The translations under genes and the position numbers were made by a program. DNA of 33,336 bases from a virus, in the IMG/VR virus record IMGVR_UViG_3300035698_014598, positions 1 through 33,336 of that record; one strand, given 5' to 3'. Below are positions 24,073 to 33,336 of this stretch, piece by piece; within the stretch, counting starts at the first letter, position 1; each line of letters starts with the position of its first letter. The notes under the pieces are model-generated. The model was not told where the DNA came from. It made no database searches and worked only from the letters and a program-made list of their open reading frames with translations.

Positions 24073-24417
24073 TTATAGATTGATAACTCCTGATTTCGTG
24101 TCTTCTGCAATCTCCTTGATGATTTTCGCGTTCTTTGGCAGGATAGCTTCGGAAAGTGCTTCGACTCCCTTGCTGAAGATTTTTCCGTTCTCCATTGGAA
24201 TATGAATAATCACATGCCCCTTGAACATGCTGACACTGATTTTTTCCAGAGTCTCACCTTTTTCCAGCTCTTTCTCCAGAATGTCATAGTTCACTGGAAT
24301 CTTCTTTTCAACCGAATCTTTCCCTTCAGACACCGTGAGCTTACCATTACGCAGCATCTCAAGAACGATTTTTTCTTCTGCCGAGATCTCAAACTTTGTT
24401 GCTTTTGCTTTTGCCAT
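24073..24417 (-). CDS. Duplicated 114-aa protein, copy A
   Basis: 114 residues from the ATG at 24417 (MAKAKATKFEISAEEKIVLE), aligned with copy B; an in-frame extension upstream would lie over the promoter. Residues 1-70 are identical to copy B; nine differences all lie in residues 71-107. Lys/Glu-rich, predicted helix-strand mix with GHVI-[IV] and IPMENGKIF strands and helices near the C-terminus. Markedly GC-richer codons than its neighbours suggest high expression or separate origin. SD GAAGGAAGTGA. No family recognised; could be a DNA-binding or coat-type protein. Confidence 0.85.
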   Translation of the reverse strand: MAKAKATKFEISAEEKIVLEMLRNGKLTVSEGKDSVEKKIPVNYDILEKELEKGETLEKISVSMFKGHVIIHIPMENGKIFSKGVEALSEAILPKNAKIIKEIAEDTKSGVINL

Positions 24418-24544: not shown

Positions 24545-24889
24545 TCAGAGGTTGATGACCCCTGATTTCACATCTGCTGCGATCTCCTTGATGATTTTCG
24601 CGTTCTTTGCGGAGACAGCTTCTGCCAGTGCTTCAACGCCCTTTCTGAAGATTTTTCCGTTCTCCATTGGGATGCTCACAATCACATGCCCCTTGAACAT
24701 GCTGACACTAATCTTTTCCAGAGTCTCGCCTTTTTCCAGCTCTTTCTCCAGAATGTCATAGTTCACCGGAATCTTCTTTTCAACCGAATCTTTCCCTTCA
24801 GACACCGTGAGCTTACCATTACGCAGCATCTCAAGAACGATTTTTTCTTCTGCCGAGATCTCAAACTTTGTTGCTTTTGCTTTAGCCAT
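24545..24889 (-). CDS. Duplicated 114-aa protein, copy B
   Basis: 114 residues; 105 identical to copy A. DNA of the first two thirds is almost unchanged even at silent positions, so the duplication is recent or is kept uniform by gene conversion, while the C-terminal third has changed (H72S, S82R, LP93-94SA and others). Strong SD AGGAGATGA 7-8 nt before the ATG. Its own TATA box at 25020-25027 and a structured leader suggest separate control from copy A. Function unknown. Confidence 0.85.
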   Translation of the reverse strand: MAKAKATKFEISAEEKIVLEMLRNGKLTVSEGKDSVEKKIPVNYDILEKELEKGETLEKISVSMFKGHVIVSIPMENGKIFRKGVEALAEAVSAKNAKIIKEIAADVKSGVINL

Positions 24890-25042: not shown

Positions 25043-25343
25043 TTATTAATAAATAGTAGTGGGATTAGATTTCTTTATTATTAATAAATAGTAGTGGAAT
25101 CAGATATCCTTATTATTAATAAATAGTAATGGGATTAGATTTCCTTATTATTAATAAATAGTAGTGGAAGTTGATTTCCTTATTATTAATAAATAGTAGT
25201 GGAAGTTGATTTCCTTATTATTAATAAATAGTAGTGGAATCAGATTTCTTTATTATTAATAAATAGTAGTGGAATCAGATCTCTTTATTATTAATAAATA
25301 ATAGTGGAAGTGGATTTCCTTATTATTAATAAATAGTAATGGA
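25043..25343. repeat. Nine 35-bp direct repeats (iteron-like)
   Basis: The core TTAATAAATAGTAGTGG starts at 25046 and recurs exactly every 35 nt (25081, 25116, 25151, 25186, 25221, 25256, 25291, 25326); the last copy is truncated. Each copy includes the 10-bp palindrome TTATTAATAA. The variable part after GTGG has a few versions (GATTAGATTTC, AATCAGATTTC, AAGTTGATTTC). Exact spacing, near 3.3 helical turns, and palindromes fit protein-binding iterons of a replication origin or a partition centromere. There are no spacers, so not CRISPR. Confidence 0.8.
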
Positions 25344-25500: not shown

Positions 25501-26547
25501 TTATAGTTTAATTTTTGGTATTTTGAACTTGTTTTTTGATAGTTTACTTAGTTTGAGAATAGATACCGATATTCCTGTCCCATTTCTTACTTTACTATCT
25601 TTTTTCTGTTTTGGAACTATATTCATTTTAAACGCTGAAGTGCTCAATTTGGTTTTTGGCTTAGTTTTGCGTTTTGTAGGTTTACCTTGTTTTCTAGTTG
25701 TTGTAGAACCCGTTTTCTTCTCCCACATGACATAATCGTTCCATCTGGTCTTTTTCGGGTTGTAGTATGGTTCGTCATTAACATTCTCTTTTATTGTTTC
25801 TTTATCAACTTTGTATTTATCAGTTGGTCTGCCTGCTTTATCAAAGTATACGTAATATCTGCTACTTCTTGGATAAATGTTAATTATTTTTTTAGCAGTT
25901 GCATATTTAAGGTCTTCTTGCTCTACAAGCCCCTTATCGACATATCTTTGATTTTTCGAATCGACCACTAGGTATTCCCGCACTATCCCTTTGAAACTAG
26001 CTTCCTTTCTAATTCCACGAGAGTATTTCGCCACCTTTGGTTTAGTTGAATTTGATTTCTTTCCTTTTGATGATGAATCGTCTACAACAACAGCTTCGAT
26101 TGTATTCGATTCTTTTTTATCACTTGTAGCATTCTTTTTAGCTGACTTACGTTTCCCCTTGGTTTTTGGTTCATCTACAACAACAGCTTCATATCGTTCA
26201 CTTTCATCTTCGGGTTTTTGTTCAGTTACAGTATCATCAATCAAAGTTATAATTGCAGATTTACTTGGCTTGTCATATTTGAATTCATATTTTCGCCCTT
26301 TCATATCATACACATTACTTCCAGATGTTATCATAATTGGTGGGGATGTTAGTTTCGTTCTTGATTCTCCAACCTTTTTAGCGTCTCTGATTGCTGCCGG
26401 TATTGTTTTTTGTGATAGTTGTTTAATTCCTTTGTTTGTTCTTTCCAGAGTTAACATTGGTCTGAAGTTATCTACATTGAGATCTGTTCCGTCTGCTACA
26501 CCATCACCAAAGAATAGATAATAATTTTTATATGTTTTATCCGCCAT
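25501..26547 (-). CDS. Basic protein with conserved C-terminal tail, 1
   Basis: 348 residues from the ATG at 26547 behind GAGGTGATTAAA. N-terminal 100 residues form the most ordered part (YYLFFGDGVADGTDLN, ITSGSNVYDMKGRKYEF). Then a Lys/Ser-rich linker with two copies of the segment EAVVVD[ED], an apparently folded segment (VREYLVVDSKNQRYVDKG, YYVYFDKAGRPTDKY), a basic low-complexity stretch, and the end FKIPKIKL. The tail matches those of the next two genes. Likely a structural or DNA-packing protein (inference). Confidence 0.8.
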   Translation of the reverse strand: MADKTYKNYYLFFGDGVADGTDLNVDNFRPMLTLERTNKGIKQLSQKTIPAAIRDAKKVGESRTKLTSPPIMITSGSNVYDMKGRKYEFKYDKPSKSAIITLIDDTVTEQKPEDESERYEAVVVDEPKTKGKRKSAKKNATSDKKESNTIEAVVVDDSSSKGKKSNSTKPKVAKYSRGIRKEASFKGIVREYLVVDSKNQRYVDKGLVEQEDLKYATAKKIINIYPRSSRYYVYFDKAGRPTDKYKVDKETIKENVNDEPYYNPKKTRWNDYVMWEKKTGSTTTRKQGKPTKRKTKPKTKLSTSAFKMNIVPKQKKDSKVRNGTGISVSILKLSKLSKNKFKIPKIKL

Positions 26548-26557
26548 TTTAATCACC

Positions 26558-27577
26558 TCATATTTTCATCCGTGGAAATTTTATCTTACCTATTTTTATA
26601 CCTGCAAACTTTGGAGTCGATACTTTTACAGAGTTTGTTGACATTGGATTTTTAATATTCATCTTTGTTAGTGGTTTCTTTATTTCTGCTTTTACATTAC
26701 CAAAGTTAAATCCAGTTGTTTTTATAGAACTCTTTTGAATTCTCTTTTTTGGTGCATATTGTTTTTGTTTTGTAGTAACTCTCTTTGTAGTTCGTTTCTT
26801 TCCACTCACTCTTTTTCTCATTGCTTCTTCACCTATAGCTTGTTCATTTCTTATTTTATCTATAACATCATCTTTTAATTTTTTAAACATGCCATTTGAA
26901 AAAATATACTCAGTGTTCAAATCATAATCGTCAACACCCCTTGTGAATATGAATTTTTGTTTTGTCAATTCTTTCATATTGTCATCTTTTATATTTGATG
27001 TCAGTATATCTACTTCCTGTTGTGATAGTGGTTCAAATGAAGATGCAACATTTTTAACATGCCCACCAACAAATGTATTGAAATTCTTTTCAGAGTTGTT
27101 CAAATCACTCTTCGATAATTTGCCTACATCGTCGAGTGATTTAAGTAGAGCAGATGGATTCTGTTTCGATGATTTAGCCTTCTCAGGTTTAACAAATTCT
27201 TTTGCCTTCTTTTTAGATGACTCCGATTTTGGAAAGCTTTCTCCTTCTTTTATCATGGTATCAGGTATAGTTTGTCCAGCTTTCTTAGTTCCTTTTTCAT
27301 ATAGTTGATATCTATTTTTGTTTGCACTCTTATCAATTGCAAAATCTTTTTCTTGTCTTGCAGCAGAAGCAACCCCATTTTTATCAATTAAACTATAAAC
27401 ATTTATGATAGCTTCATATGGTTCTTCTTCAACTTTTATTTCAAACTTTTTTTCCTTTCTATTTCTTCTGCTTACTTTATCTCCACTGCCTTCTGAGCTT
27501 GGTTGCGGATAAGCATCATTTTTGAAATACTTATATATATTTCTTCCCGACTCTTCATCATATTCAGGTTTCACCAT
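26558..27577 (-). CDS. Basic protein with conserved C-terminal tail, 2
   Basis: 339 residues from the ATG at 27577 behind CGGTGAT, with a TATA box at 27616-27623. N-terminus MVKPEYDEESGRNIYKYF, a basic region, EEPYEAIINVYSLIDKNG, then a Lys/Ser linker, a helical segment (LSQQEVDILTSNIKDDNM), FTRGVDDYDLNTEYIFSNG and a highly basic C-terminal 80 residues ending IKFPRMKI. Composition and tail parallel 25501-26547 and 27639-29276. Confidence 0.8.
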   Translation of the reverse strand: MVKPEYDEESGRNIYKYFKNDAYPQPSSEGSGDKVSRRNRKEKKFEIKVEEEPYEAIINVYSLIDKNGVASAARQEKDFAIDKSANKNRYQLYEKGTKKAGQTIPDTMIKEGESFPKSESSKKKAKEFVKPEKAKSSKQNPSALLKSLDDVGKLSKSDLNNSEKNFNTFVGGHVKNVASSFEPLSQQEVDILTSNIKDDNMKELTKQKFIFTRGVDDYDLNTEYIFSNGMFKKLKDDVIDKIRNEQAIGEEAMRKRVSGKKRTTKRVTTKQKQYAPKKRIQKSSIKTTGFNFGNVKAEIKKPLTKMNIKNPMSTNSVKVSTPKFAGIKIGKIKFPRMKI

Positions 27578-27615
27578 ATTTCTATCACCGTTAACACTCT
27601 TCTGTTTATTCAACT

Positions 27616-27637
27616 ATTTATAACTTTCTGAAAAAAA
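27616..27637 (-). promoter_or_regulatory. Terminator of 27639 gene and TATA box of next
   Basis: Minus strand: T7 (27637-27631) right after the stop of the 27639 gene, then TTATAAAT (27623-27616). Termination and a new start are thus packed in 22 nt. Predicted RNA start is about 27595, giving an 18-nt leader with GGTGAT. Confidence 0.6.
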
Positions 27638-27638
27638 T

Positions 27639-29276
27639 TTATATTTTGATTTTTGGTAGTTTAACAATGCTATACTGCTTTTTCTTTTTAAGTTCAACAC
27701 GTTTCTTTGTATATGGGTTTACTGTCTTTATGTTTTTAGATATATTCGCACTTGAAAACCTGTTATTCTTAGAGCATGCCATTTTCATATTTTTCCTAAA
27801 CTGAGTTGCACCTTGGATTGGATTGAACTGGTTCTCTCCATATTGCTGATTCTGTACCGGCATAGTCTGACCCATCTGCATATTATTCACGGTTGCAAAC
27901 TGCTGATTGACCTGATCCTGTTTTGGCTGAACGAGTGTGTATTTCTGTTTATTCTTTGTAACACCACGTATATTTAAATTCTCAAGTCCAATTTTTGGTT
28001 TTTCTTCCTGAACGTATTGTCCTTCTGGTGTAACATAAATCGCCCCACTTTTTTCACTACCACCAAATTTCTTAAGTGCTGGTAGTTTAAAATCTTTAAC
28101 AGATATAGTTTGTTTGTATTTTTTCCCGGCGCGTGTGGATATATCTTCAGTCTGAGAATCGAAAATACTAGCCCTTTGTTTATGGATTGGAACCATCACA
28201 CTCTTTAATGGAACGCGCCCACTCTTGACACCGACGTTTCTTGTGATATTTAAATAACCAGTTCCCATACGTCTTCCGCTTGGTGACTGTATTGTTTTTC
28301 CAAGATTTGTTGCTATGTCTTTTGATGGTGGTTTTAGTAAGCGATCTGTATTTATTCCATAACTTGTTTTAAACTTGCCTGAACCTCCTTTTCCACCAAC
28401 TGTATCTAAAACATCTATTAAATCTTTTTTGAATCCACTTCCACTTTTAGCTTTTCCTTTTGAGATTGCTGCTTGGTATTTAATTTTATTTTCTTTGCGC
28501 GCACCTTCAAGTCTGAATTTTTCTTCTCTCTTCTTTTTTATTTCATCATCATATTTAAACCGCGTCTTATCTTTTTCATTTAATTTTCTCTCTTCGGATA
28601 ATATTTCATTTGTTATACGTTCTATAGTCCACTTTGCTTGATTTGCAACAATGTTTAATTTGCTAACCTCTTCTGAACCCATTGGCGAACTCTGTATTTC
28701 TTCTCTTAGAACTTTTAATTTACTCTCTTCTTCTTTTTTTTCTTTTTTCAGACTTTCAATATTATCAATTATTTCACTTTTCGACTCTTTCATCGTTCCT
28801 ATTTCTCTATCACGCTCAGCTTCTAAGAATGCTATTTCGTTTTCTATACTTTTAATTTTATCAGAATATGCTCCCGGTGTAACAAATCCCGTGGGTAATC
28901 CACCTTCAGCAGCGTATCCATAATTTCTGCCTTCAAATCTTCCTTCGATACCACTAACTAATCCTCCACCTGCTGTTTTTGCAACATTACTTGTCTTCCC
29001 CAATACCTTCTTTCTGGCACTTGCTATCACTCCCGGTGCTTCGCTAGCATCCTTTGCCATAGCTTTTGCTCCAGATGCTATTTTTGCAATAAATTTTTCC
29101 CTGCCTCTTTGTAGCAACCCCGGTGTTTCTGTTGTCTCGCTTACGGGTGCTTCTTTAGTTTGGACGGGTTCTGCTGCAACTTCATCCGTATTTATAAACT
29201 CTATAATATTGTTTGTAGCATTTTCATCTTTCTTTCCATCTTCTCCCACATTTTTCACTTCTTCATTATCAGCCAT
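27639..29276 (-). CDS. Coiled-coil basic protein with conserved tail, 3
   Basis: 545 residues behind GGTGATATATA. Residues 1-55 acidic; 55-100 Ala/Lys-rich helical (KFIAKIASGAKAMAKDASEA); then Gly-rich; about 135-265 a long charged coiled coil (SKSEIIDNIESLKKEKKEEE); then Gly/Lys/Ser-rich basic regions, a Gln/Asn-rich segment around 430-475 (QPKQDQVNQQF, MQMGQTMPVQNQQYGENQ), and the end YSIVKLPKIKI. An internal FKLPALKKF resembles the tail. Looks like an elongated scaffold, tape-like or internal virion protein. Confidence 0.8.
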   Translation of the reverse strand: MADNEEVKNVGEDGKKDENATNNIIEFINTDEVAAEPVQTKEAPVSETTETPGLLQRGREKFIAKIASGAKAMAKDASEAPGVIASARKKVLGKTSNVAKTAGGGLVSGIEGRFEGRNYGYAAEGGLPTGFVTPGAYSDKIKSIENEIAFLEAERDREIGTMKESKSEIIDNIESLKKEKKEEESKLKVLREEIQSSPMGSEEVSKLNIVANQAKWTIERITNEILSEERKLNEKDKTRFKYDDEIKKKREEKFRLEGARKENKIKYQAAISKGKAKSGSGFKKDLIDVLDTVGGKGGSGKFKTSYGINTDRLLKPPSKDIATNLGKTIQSPSGRRMGTGYLNITRNVGVKSGRVPLKSVMVPIHKQRASIFDSQTEDISTRAGKKYKQTISVKDFKLPALKKFGGSEKSGAIYVTPEGQYVQEEKPKIGLENLNIRGVTKNKQKYTLVQPKQDQVNQQFATVNNMQMGQTMPVQNQQYGENQFNPIQGATQFRKNMKMACSKNNRFSSANISKNIKTVNPYTKKRVELKKKKQYSIVKLPKIKI

Positions 29277-29318: not shown

Positions 29319-29594
29319 TTAACATTTTCCAGACCTCTTTTTATTTTTAGATTTTTTGCTCACTTTACTCTTCTTTGTTATTTTCATTTTCATATTGCCG
29401 TTCTTATCTATATCGACATCACCACGAACTCCAGTTTCATTTATATAGAATGTTCCGTCTTTTATTCCTGACTCTCTTAAAGCAGCGATTGCATCTTGTT
29501 CAAGTGATCTTTCTATTTCCTTTAAAGTAAACCCATTTATTTTAGAAGAGCGTGCGGCATCTTTTATAGATTTTTTATTAATTTTAATTGGCAT
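29319..29594 (-). CDS. Small very basic protein, probably leaderless
   Basis: 91 residues. N-terminal helical half (KSIKDAARSSKINGFTLKEIERS, split by a turn; then DAIAALRESG), short strands (TFYINETGVRGDVDI), and a Lys/Ser tail ending KRSGKC. No ribosome site; the TATA box (29618-29625) is about 27 nt from the ATG, so RNA would start at or next to the ATG. Likely binds nucleic acid through its tail. A histone fold was considered and not supported. Confidence 0.75.
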   Translation of the reverse strand: MPIKINKKSIKDAARSSKINGFTLKEIERSLEQDAIAALRESGIKDGTFYINETGVRGDVDIDKNGNMKMKITKKSKVSKKSKNKKRSGKC

Positions 29595-29668: not shown

Positions 29669-29896
29669 TTATAAAAATTTCAGTGTAAATTCTTCTCTTT
29701 CATAAGTTCCGAGTTTTTTTCCGGTTTTAAAATCTATGACTTCTATTGATACAGTTTTGCCAGATTTCTTTTTCTTACTAACATCCAATGATTTTTTAAC
29801 ATCGGATGGGTTTTTAATACGAAGTGGTTTTAATTTACCACCATAATTTATTTTGAATATTAATTTATTCATCTTATTTTTGTTTTTTAAAGTCAT
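29669..29896 (-). CDS. Small basic beta protein (75 aa)
   Basis: MTLKNKNKMNKLIFKINYGG, then LKPLRIKNPSDVKKSLDV, a Lys-rich loop, and strands VSIEVIDFKTGKKLGTYE ending FTLKFL. A small strand-rich basic protein. SD GGCGGTGAAAT just before the ATG; 3 nt separate it from the upstream gene, with which it is probably co-transcribed. Confidence 0.75.
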   Translation of the reverse strand: MTLKNKNKMNKLIFKINYGGKLKPLRIKNPSDVKKSLDVSKKKKSGKTVSIEVIDFKTGKKLGTYEREEFTLKFL

Positions 29897-29899
29897 ATT

Positions 29900-30778
29900 T
29901 CACCGCCTACTTATAAAGATGTCTGTTAGCAATACAGCCATACAAAGTGCGAATAACACAATTCCGACTGCTTTTGCCTCTGGTGGGAATATCAATCCAA
30001 ACATACCAGCAGATAATATTCCGATTACGAGTGGTATATATATCTCTCCACTTCTGATCCACGTTATCGCCAAATAGGTAAAGTAGATCAATATAAAGAA
30101 CCAGTAATTAAATATGTTGAGGATTGGTAATAATAAACTTACGGCGAAATCATACATTGGGAAGTTGCCGGTTGTGATAGTTTGGTTTAACCAGTATTTT
30201 GTATATGTTCCATTATTCATATCATAATCGTAAGAAGCGTCAAATGTAACGGTTGGATACCAGTTCTCTACAATTAAGTTTCCTATGAAATCTACAATAG
30301 CTGCGCCGAAATCAAATATAGGATTTGTGTGCGCACCAGAATCATCATCTAATTGTGTGGCGGTTGCAGATATAGTGGCTTCTCCTTCTGCTATCCAATA
30401 TAATTCTACATAACATAATATTGAACTTAAATCACCAGCCTGAATTACATCATCTATATCCAACCCCGTGACTTTAACTGAGTTTGAACTATCATATTGA
30501 AAAGTGCTGGCTCCGTAAGATAAAAAAGCTGGTGGAAAAGTGATGTCATTTATTTTTACCACGTCTTCATTAGAACTGGTAAATATAAGTTCATATCCAG
30601 AAATTCCATCTGTAGAATCGGTTATTATGATTGGAACATTCGCTGTTCTTAATGCCACAGCTTGTTCATCATTATGTATTTCAAATGTATAATCTCCTAT
30701 AGAAATATCATAAGCAGCTAAAGCGGGAGAGACGAGAAGAAACAATAATGTGATTAACAAAAATAATTTTACTTTCAT
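29900..30778 (-). CDS. Cohesin-like membrane protein
   Basis: 292 residues. Signal peptide 1-21 (MKVKLFLLITLLFLLVSPALA). About 25-160: VPIIITDSTDGISGYELIFT, a strand with EDVVKI, LDIDDVIQAGDLSSI and a final G-E-ATISATATQLDDDSG, the order of a cohesin-type beta-sandwich as found in surface proteins of methanogens. A linker with two N-glycosylation sequons (NGT, NQT) and then about three membrane helices (WFFILIYFTYLAI; PLVIGILSAGMFGLIF; GIVLFALCMAVLLTDIF) and a basic end. So: outer domain with C-terminal anchors. Likely virion envelope or host-surface protein. SD GGTGAT. Confidence 0.8.
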   Translation of the reverse strand: MKVKLFLLITLLFLLVSPALAAYDISIGDYTFEIHNDEQAVALRTANVPIIITDSTDGISGYELIFTSSNEDVVKINDITFPPAFLSYGASTFQYDSSNSVKVTGLDIDDVIQAGDLSSILCYVELYWIAEGEATISATATQLDDDSGAHTNPIFDFGAAIVDFIGNLIVENWYPTVTFDASYDYDMNNGTYTKYWLNQTITTGNFPMYDFAVSLLLPILNIFNYWFFILIYFTYLAITWIRSGEIYIPLVIGILSAGMFGLIFPPEAKAVGIVLFALCMAVLLTDIFISRR

Positions 30779-30968: not shown

Positions 30969-31412
30969 TTATTCCATTGTTTTTCCCGATACACCACGAA
31001 CTACTTGAACAATGGCAACAACAAATACCATCCAGATTCCAGCTTGCACCCCATTTGCTATAACTTCTGGGAATTGTAAATCTATTAATATTCTCGCAAC
31101 TCCAGTAAATGAATCTGCTATAAAACTAAAAAATGCTTTTATTGTATCTGTTATTGTAAAAACTTCAAATAAACTTAAACCGTCTGCTGATGCATTACTA
31201 AAATTAGAAGCAGCACTTATCATTCCATAATTTGGATTTACATATGACATAGATAAATTCGCTGATTGATTTCGTAACATTATTGTAGAGTTGTTAACAT
31301 CTATAACAGCAATCTGACCGGGATAATAAGAGTCCATTACTGGTATAACTGTTAAAATTCCCAATGATATTTGGAAAGAAAGTATAAAAATAATTATTAA
31401 CCATGCTCGCAT
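30969..31412 (-). CDS. Sequon-rich small membrane protein
   Basis: 147 residues. Signal/anchor at the N-terminus (MRAWLIIIFILSFQISLGIL). Outer part about 20-90 with six N-x-S/T sequons (NNST, NQS, NLS, NFS, NAS), then an amphipathic helix (TIKAFFSFIADSFTGVARIL) and a membrane helix near the end (GIWMVFVVAIVQVV). Predicted heavily N-glycosylated surface or envelope protein. SD AGGTGA; TATA box at 31449-31457. Confidence 0.75.
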   Translation of the reverse strand: MRAWLIIIFILSFQISLGILTVIPVMDSYYPGQIAVIDVNNSTIMLRNQSANLSMSYVNPNYGMISAASNFSNASADGLSLFEVFTITDTIKAFFSFIADSFTGVARILIDLQFPEVIANGVQAGIWMVFVVAIVQVVRGVSGKTME

Positions 31413-31475: not shown

Positions 31476-33336
31476 TTAAGTTTTTGAGCCACGGATAAGT
31501 GACGTGACTACACCAATAAATACCGCTAACATTATAACCGAGTAATCCAGTGTTATAACATTGAAATAACGTAACATGAATGCAAGGAATCCAATGAGCA
31601 CAATACCTTTGTTACTATTCATCCATGAGAACAATCCACCAACAACCATTAAAAAGAGAACGCCAAGGATGTTTTTAAACATATCATCTTCGTAAGTCCA
31701 TCCAAATATATCTAGATTATATGCTGAAACGAATTTCTCTATTATCATATGATCTCCATTAGTTCTATAGATATCAAATACAATTTTATATGCAGATGTA
31801 TCGTATGGTGGTAAGTGATATGTATCATTTACTGACATTGTTGCAGAATATGTTTCAGTTTTAACATCCGTATCAGAATTTATATTATAAACTCTTACTG
31901 TAACATCAGCATTTTCACCATCAGTATATGTATAAACAATTGCATCATAAACTATTACTGCATCGCATGTATAATTATAACGTGCCTGACTAGTAGTTAC
32001 AGTTAAAGTTACGTATGGGTTATTTTGCGTGATATCAGAGAATATTTTTGTGTGATCATATTCTGTCGCTGTTATTTTGTAACTATAACCATCTATAATC
32101 TGGAATATGAATCTTCCGTTTGAATCTGTTGTTGTATAACTATTTAGAACCCACTCATATTCTGGGTATGTTACTTGGGACTCATAAATTTCAATAGTTT
32201 TTCCAACGCCTTTTACACCATCTATATATAATGAACCTGTTGCTGAAAAGGTATCTGCTGCAACAACATCAACAGTTGTATTAACCGTTTCATATAATCT
32301 TGTTCTGCCATCATCATAACCAACGGCGAAATAATCACCCGTTAAAGACATTTTTACCGCATTTACTACATCATATACAGTTCCCGAATAAAATAAATAC
32401 CATCCACTAGCTGCATCTTTAGAAAACACATAGTATTTTTGATCTTGTGAACCTGTAATAGTTAAAAGACCAGTAGATGCCGCTATATCAACTGAATTGA
32501 TTGCCCCACCGGAATTATATTCACCAACTGCTACACCATCTGATTTGAATATGTTTGTAGCAATTCCTCTTCCTTCAACATAATACGAAGCTGCGTTTGA
32601 TGTTGCTAATGAATATGTTGTACCGGCAGTAGTTGGTGTGGTATCGATTACAACTCCAAATCCCGTTCCTGAACCAGTGATAGGTATTTTGTTTATATCC
32701 GAACTTGTTGCTGCTATTATATAATCACCAACTGGAGGTGTTGAAAGTAATGTGACATTATCGTCAAGCGTAATTGTATCCTGAAGTGTTACATAGTGAA
32801 TTGTTGGGATTGATTCTTCTGCTGCTGCTGTTCCTGTGAATATGTATGGGACTGTTACTATGACAATTCCAGTGTTACCATTATCGCCACTATCTCCAAT
32901 TATTCCGCCAACATTGCCATGCACTGCGTTTGCGCCATCTCCACCAACTGTATAATCCGTCCCAGAATATGTAAATATTTTAATACCACCAGCACCGCCA
33001 ATACCACCAGAAACACCACCACTCCCAGCAGAACCATAGTTATCTCCAGCACCACCAGCACCGCCAATACCACCACCCCCCAGACTATAAGATAAATCCC
33101 TACCGTTTGTTCCAGCAATACCACCAGAACCACCTACAACAGTTGACGAATCAAACACTGATGAACCACCACTACTACCAGACCAAGTTGATCCACCTGC
33201 GTTATCTACTGTTCCTCCAGCACCTCCACTTCCACCATTTCCAACTGTTATGGTATAAGATGAACCAGATGTTATTGATGGAGTTGTTGTATTAATCCAG
33301 CCCGAACCACCTCCTCCACCACCACCACCGAGTACT
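31476..33336 (-). CDS. Glycine-rich membrane-anchored spike/fibre-like protein, 5' end missing
   Basis: The frame is open to the right edge (first visible residues VLGGGGGGG), so the N-terminus lies outside; a GTG at 33158 is not the true start. Visible domains: a Gly-rich region (GGAGG, GGIGG and similar, about 150 residues) like phage tail-fibre or adhesin Gly-rich domains; a beta region with repeat-like strands including MSLTGDYFAVGYDDG (WD/propeller-like); a carboxypeptidase-regulatory-like beta sandwich (TTTDSNGRFIFQIIDGYSYKI); another beta domain; three C-terminal membrane helices (ILGVLFLMVVGGLF; IVLIGFLAFML; VIMLAVFIGVVTSLI) with a basic end. Best candidate for the host-recognition spike. 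Confidence 0.8.
   Translation of the reverse strand, partial: VLGGGGGGGGSGWINTTTPSITSGSSYTITVGNGGSGGAGGTVDNAGGSTWSGSSGGSSVFDSSTVVGGSGGIAGTNGRDLSYSLGGGGIGGAGGAGDNYGSAGSGGVSGGIGGAGGIKIFTYSGTDYTVGGDGANAVHGNVGGIIGDSGDNGNTGIVIVTVPYIFTGTAAAEESIPTIHYVTLQDTITLDDNVTLLSTPPVGDYIIAATSSDINKIPITGSGTGFGVVIDTTPTTAGTTYSLATSNAASYYVEGRGIATNIFKSDGVAVGEYNSGGAINSVDIAASTGLLTITGSQDQKYYVFSKDAASGWYLFYSGTVYDVVNAVKMSLTGDYFAVGYDDGRTRLYETVNTTVDVVAADTFSATGSLYIDGVKGVGKTIEIYESQVTYPEYEWVLNSYTTTDSNGRFIFQIIDGYSYKITATEYDHTKIFSDITQNNPYVTLTVTTSQARYNYTCDAVIVYDAIVYTYTDGENADVTVRVYNINSDTDVKTETYSATMSVNDTYHLPPYDTSAYKIVFDIYRTNGDHMIIEKFVSAYNLDIFGWTYEDDMFKNILGVLFLMVVGGLFSWMNSNKGIVLIGFLAFMLRYFNVITLDYSVIMLAVFIGVVTSLIRGSKT

Follow-up and report, generated by a model that had tools for sequence, protein, structure and literature searches.

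Gene content of the window

The window analysed here is the whole 33,336-base stretch of IMG/VR record IMGVR_UViG_3300035698_014598. Both of its ends are cut, its GC content is 32%, and one strand bears nearly all of its genes, several of which are preceded by archaeal-looking TATA boxes and GGTGAT ribosome sites. Genes are named below by their lower coordinate. The order on the minus strand begins with a spike-like, Gly-rich protein with C-terminal transmembrane (TM) segments that is truncated by the contig end (31476; 31476–33335), followed by a membrane protein of 147 amino acids (30969; 30969–31412), a 292 amino acid protein with a signal-like N-terminus, an ectodomain, and a C-terminal TM module (29900; 29900–30778), and two small basic proteins of 75 amino acids (29669; 29669–29896) and 91 amino acids (29319; 29319–29594). 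Directly downstream of this membrane-protein group lie 27639 (27639–29276; 545 amino acids, tail VKLPKIKI), 26558 (26558–27577; 339 amino acids, tail IKFPRMKI), and 25501 (25501–26547; 348 amino acids, tail FKIPKIKL), also on the minus strand. The net charges of these three proteins are +33, +28, and +38, respectively, compared to −3 to −31 for the adjoining membrane genes. The remainder of the strand holds a 35-bp repeat array, a duplicated gene for a 114 amino acid protein, and about 23 kb of small, mostly acidic open reading frames (ORFs), including an RNA ligase.

The array occupies the gap after the tail cassette (25043–25343, 8.6 copies of an AT-rich tandem repeat) and is possibly an origin or partition site. 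The 114 amino acid protein is encoded at 24073–24417 and 24545–24889 in copies that are 92% identical, and the GC3 of the pair is about 0.5 compared to 0.2–0.3 elsewhere in the genome, which suggests that the gene is highly expressed or was captured recently; a search of genomes with 24545 found no relative, and its AlphaFold model was too low in quality for use. Local duplications are abundant in the window, and positions 1–23000 contain similar small acidic ORFs in many pairs or triplets (for example, 7051/7235/7439, 11305/11654, and 12446/1034). ORF 12446 has a 37% match in the marine phage fosmid AP013539.

Family libraries gave no name for any of the three tailed proteins. For 25501, no Pfam match was obtained and phrog_10657 matched only weakly (E 9e-4), and the AlphaFold model was unusable (pLDDT 36.7).

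A C-terminal tail shared by three consecutive proteins

The first-pass annotation had proposed that these three consecutive proteins carry a common C-terminal tail, and this proved correct. All three C-termini fit K-[ILF]-P-[KR]-[IM]-K-[IL]-stop exactly; they read ...NKFKIPKIKL in 25501 (codons for KIPKIKL-stop at 25501–25524), ...GKIKFPRMKI in 26558 (KFPRMKI-stop at 26558–26581), and ...YSIVKLPKIKI in 27639 (KLPKIKI-stop at 27639–27662), all on the minus strand. No other ORF of at least 50 amino acids in the window ends in this way. The sole internal match to the core among the window ORFs is FKLPALKKF in 27639 (28065–28091, minus strand, with the core Lys from 28088). This stretch had been put forward as a relic or a second binding site; it does match the loose core, and related proteins have tandem core copies, which makes a second site possible.

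The C-termini of the three proteins are lysine-rich, as a compositional artefact or coincidence would have it, but that explanation is refuted by the tests run and we give it next to no credence. Given the residue composition of the final 60 positions, a permissive form of the tail pattern had a probability of ~1e-5 per protein and ~3e-15 jointly, and in a pattern-free test of the last eight residues, none of 200,000 composition-preserving shuffles reached the observed pairwise similarity (78, with 56 for the best shuffle). The pattern is also uncommon in other Lys-rich proteins: among 1873 distinct ORFs from all fetched loci, 150 other ORFs have K/R-rich ends, and the loose core occurs in two of these, both being the corresponding protein of related proviruses described below (L233 and L235). 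The DNA pattern for K-x-P-K-I-K-x-stop gave 35 matches in 2.9 million viral contigs, four of which are true ORF ends (three distinct, unrelated proteins) and never two at one locus. These three proteins, of 247–326 amino acids and from unrelated viral contigs (L010/L014, L017, and L018), end in KIPKIKI or KLPKIKF. The shared tail is thus real, non-random, and partly conserved, and is not a product of generic lysine richness or chance.

The bodies of the three proteins had been described as different, which is evident for 27639, whose body has no visible relation to the other two, and does not fully apply to 25501 and 26558, which are weakly similar outside the tail (E 0.26–0.40; E 1.2 for the last 80 residues) and may therefore be distant paralogues. 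This similarity, together with the abundance of local duplications in the window, is what would be expected if the tails were a relic of shared ancestry, the end of a duplicated gene having been kept without any special function. We consider this improbable, since the body of 27639 is unrelated, the synonymous codons of the three tails differ, and the motif is again found at the C-terminus in L235. The codon differences also indicate that the tails do not stem from a recent DNA duplication. Furthermore, the resemblance is confined mainly to the last seven to eight residues while the adjoining sequence differs, which points to selection.

Related proviruses in archaeal genomes

Relatives of the window were sought through the C-terminal membrane module of 29900, which matches a Thermoplasmata genome (E 3e-12). 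Seed archaeal genomes were obtained with an archaeal 16S pattern, used for that purpose only, and profiles built from the module were searched against the classes and phyla around the seeds Methanosarcina, Archaeoglobales, ANME-1, and Methanoculleus. This search resulted in loci around those seeds and weak matches in Thermoproteota; a long concatenated query retrieved mainly host cohesin-like surface proteins, whereas the membrane-module profile succeeded. In total, about 20 proviral loci from Methanosarcinia (L202–L213), Archaeoglobi, Methanomicrobia, and Thermoplasmata were related to the window by this 3-TM module. The module is 34–38% identical to those of L161 (Thermoplasmata) and L215 (Archaeoglobi), and most of the relatives were recovered by profile. 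A second profile for 30969-like proteins (A3), which is partly circular as the window is one of its three seeds, matched the gene adjoining the 29900-like gene in 12 loci besides the window. The two membrane-protein genes are adjacent in most of the proviral loci.

The proviral loci contain spike-like genes, TM proteins, ATPases, some integrases, and basic low-complexity proteins, the last of which adjoin the spike and membrane-protein genes as in the window. The first-pass annotation had asked whether tailed genes cluster with capsid or membrane genes; the three lie directly downstream of the virion-type membrane genes 31476, 30969, and 29900, and this order recurs in the related proviruses. 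The basic proteins beside the module agree between the window and its relatives in gene order and charge, with sequence homology undetected. In L211, for example, the order (membrane protein, gene of ~50 amino acids, small basic, large basic) resembles that of the window; compared in this way, 29669 holds the position of the ~50 amino acid gene, and 27639 occupies the place of the large basic protein, an equivalence of place and character, since no sequence similarity between 27639 and those large proteins was detected. By eye, the relatives' large basic protein has a seeming nucleotidyltransferase-like stretch, YGS...DIDV (L161 5841–9035, L218 3757–6453, and L233 10285–12348).

Loci L233, L234, and L235 are three copies of an element within one Methanomicrobia genome, with nearly identical 29900-like and large basic genes. 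This genome (G717) was considered as the source of the closest relative and rejected, since a tree places the window near L161 and L215 instead, on a long branch with weak support. Searches of viral contigs with 8-residue patterns from five window proteins, a 3-row alignment, and the L235 protein found no close relatives, and DNA and protein searches of a phage collection gave no useful match. Based on the shared membrane pair, the gene order, and the basic proteins in these loci, the window appears to be a fragment of a virus belonging to an undescribed archaeal group, probably enveloped.

C-termini of the basic proteins in the related proviruses

Directly after the 29900-like gene, L233–L235 encode a protein of 687–701 amino acids with a net charge of +56 that ends in ...FKLKTPAFKSPFVKKTGRKKK or ...KLKTPKFKAPKFK (in longer form, ...KMPTFKLKTPAFKSPFVKKTGRKKK or ...FKPLKLKTPKFKAPKFK) and contains two to three tandem core copies (KMPTFK, KTPAFK, and KSPFVK; KTPKFK and KAPKFK). 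The closest form of the window tail (KLKTPKFKAPKFK; FKLKTPAFKSPFVKK) is that of this corresponding protein in the three proviral copies from one Methanomicrobia genome. An alignment of the end of 25501 with the end of the L235 protein outscored 999 of 1000 shuffles as well as every other stretch of that protein; the other two tails aligned more poorly (shuffle fractions of 0.08 and 0.30).

The first-pass annotation had taken loss of the tail in orthologues as grounds for refutation, and the outcome was mixed: the tail is kept in the three Methanomicrobia copies, whereas the tails of most relatives differ. In the latter, the large and small basic proteins end in other short motifs, frequently [ND]-P-hydrophobic and in some cases W-rich. 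When the last 30 residues were examined, the [ND]-P-hydrophobic motif, which was noticed first and tested afterwards, was present in 8 of 12 large basic proteins and 6 of 10 small ones (6 of 12 if two proteins of equal length and wrong identity are included), compared to 7 of 277 other genes. The large and small proteins of a genome are different proteins, as with GNPLEV and SNPLEM in L205 and GDPLKA and FNPLDF in L211. This C-terminal motif was not encountered in the window, whose tails are K-h-P-[KR]-h-K-h; by eye, NPM and NPY lie about 25–35 residues upstream of two of the tailed-protein ends.

In L215, a W/D-rich C-terminus is common to three basic proteins (reached in 12 of 20,000 shuffles). 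Three consecutive, very basic genes precede the spike in L250 (1491–6091) and end in KKNLWW, KRHWWS, and FNPWSGRME, which is suggestive of a shared tail and is not significant alone. With the window excluded, a general test of whether basic-protein ends resemble each other more within a provirus than between proviruses was matched by 98 (last 12 residues), 188 (last 18), and 131 (last 25) of 2000 permutations. The outcome is weak overall and borderline, with L215 and L250 as its basis.

Possible functions of the tail

Our best explanation, which we hold tentatively and put at a little under an even chance, is that the three are disordered proteins of the inner virion that contact DNA, and that their tails share one docking partner, as judged from the position and pattern of the tails. 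The proteins, largely disordered and lysine-rich, would reside inside an enveloped archaeal virion, with the spike and two membrane proteins encoded in the same cassette. Through their lysine-rich stretches they may contact the genome, condensing or lining it, and the tail h-K-h-P-[KR]-h-K-h would dock on a single virion component shared by all three, most likely a membrane or major coat protein that is encoded off this contig and would be bound at its inner face. Because the same motif would dock on one component, three different proteins would thereby be recruited to one site during assembly. The docking or sorting idea of the first-pass annotation is plausible in this form and partly supported by the non-random tail, the gene context, and the short motifs in relatives. 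Counting against it, the tail sequence of most relatives differs, and the basic 91 amino acid protein 29319 is tailless.

A serious rival, although we regard it as rather unlikely, is that the tail is an amphipathic basic peptide, with Lys alternating with Ile, Leu, or Phe around Pro, that binds directly to DNA or to the acidic inner membrane without a protein receptor. Direct binding is favoured by the lysine content, as half of the amphipathic motif is lysine and the tailed proteins are basic over their whole length, and by the two or three tandem copies in L233–L235, a repetition that would suit a peptide binding nucleic acid or membrane. A protein partner is favoured by the extreme C-terminal position of the tail in all three proteins, when a DNA binder could sit anywhere in the lysine-rich stretches, by the strictness of the hydrophobic positions, and by non-basic equivalents in the relatives, some of whose C-terminal motifs are acidic (SNPLEMDLPGFEL, FNPLDFDLDDFDPFR) and fit direct binding poorly.

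C-terminal processing tags exist in other viruses, and this general precedent is what speaks for the tail being recognised by a dedicated protease or in export, as had also been suggested. We consider such a role very unlikely: the ORFs scanned on the incomplete contig yielded no gene for a protease or for secretion, and signal peptides were not seen by eye in the three tailed proteins.

Extending the docking explanation to the relatives, the window could belong to a lineage of enveloped archaeal viruses, widespread and so far undescribed, whose inner virion is organised by a set of unrelated basic proteins. All of these would bear one C-terminal address peptide specific to the virus, a common coat or membrane protein would read it, and peptide and reader would change together between viruses. 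We think this unlikely, and offer the notion of a separate tail for each provirus as a possibility rather than a result because the general test was only borderline. Little is known of how enveloped archaeal viruses keep their DNA and inner proteins at the membrane, and a defined eight-residue tail on three proteins provides a direct handle for finding the partner. As the proviral group spans several classes of methanogens and thermophiles, cultured hosts could be used to address this question.

Comparison with known systems

Encapsulin cargo-loading peptides resemble the window tails in being short C-terminal peptides common to unrelated proteins, an analogy from which it had been suggested that the tailed proteins are loaded into a protein shell. 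Both tail sequence and context differ, the latter consisting of membrane proteins here, and no HK97-type or encapsulin-like shell protein was found among the shell-size ORFs of the window fragment. Besides the tailed genes, four ORFs reach 260 amino acids (the RNA ligase, the spike-like protein, a membrane protein, and an acidic protein of 344 amino acids), none of which matches a shell family. Judging from this incomplete contig, we give an encapsulin-type cargo peptide almost no weight.

The nearest described analogues are the Pleolipoviridae, archaeal enveloped viruses and proviruses that include AvPV1-like viruses of Archaeoglobi and have the gene order spike, ORF6-like, ORF7-like, NTPase (PMC10919331, PMC10599561). 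The order of the spike-like gene, 30969, and 29900 is comparable, whereas pleolipoviral genomes are 7–17 kb compared to the 33 kb of the window fragment, and the NTPase that they carry is not present on the window contig. A tblastn search of phage records with the membrane proteins of the window and its relatives found no match that would link them to Pleolipoviridae, and a sequence search of solved structures found no fusogen match, the window spike being cut by the contig end.

The proviral group (L233–L235, L161, L215, and L202–L213) differs from the window in that its basic proteins mostly have [ND]-P-hydrophobic or other ends and in lacking three consecutive K-h-P-K-h-K-h genes. It shares with the window homologues of 29900, often a homologue of 30969, a spike-like gene, and basic low-complexity neighbours, and in L233–L235 the C-terminus closely resembles that of the window proteins.
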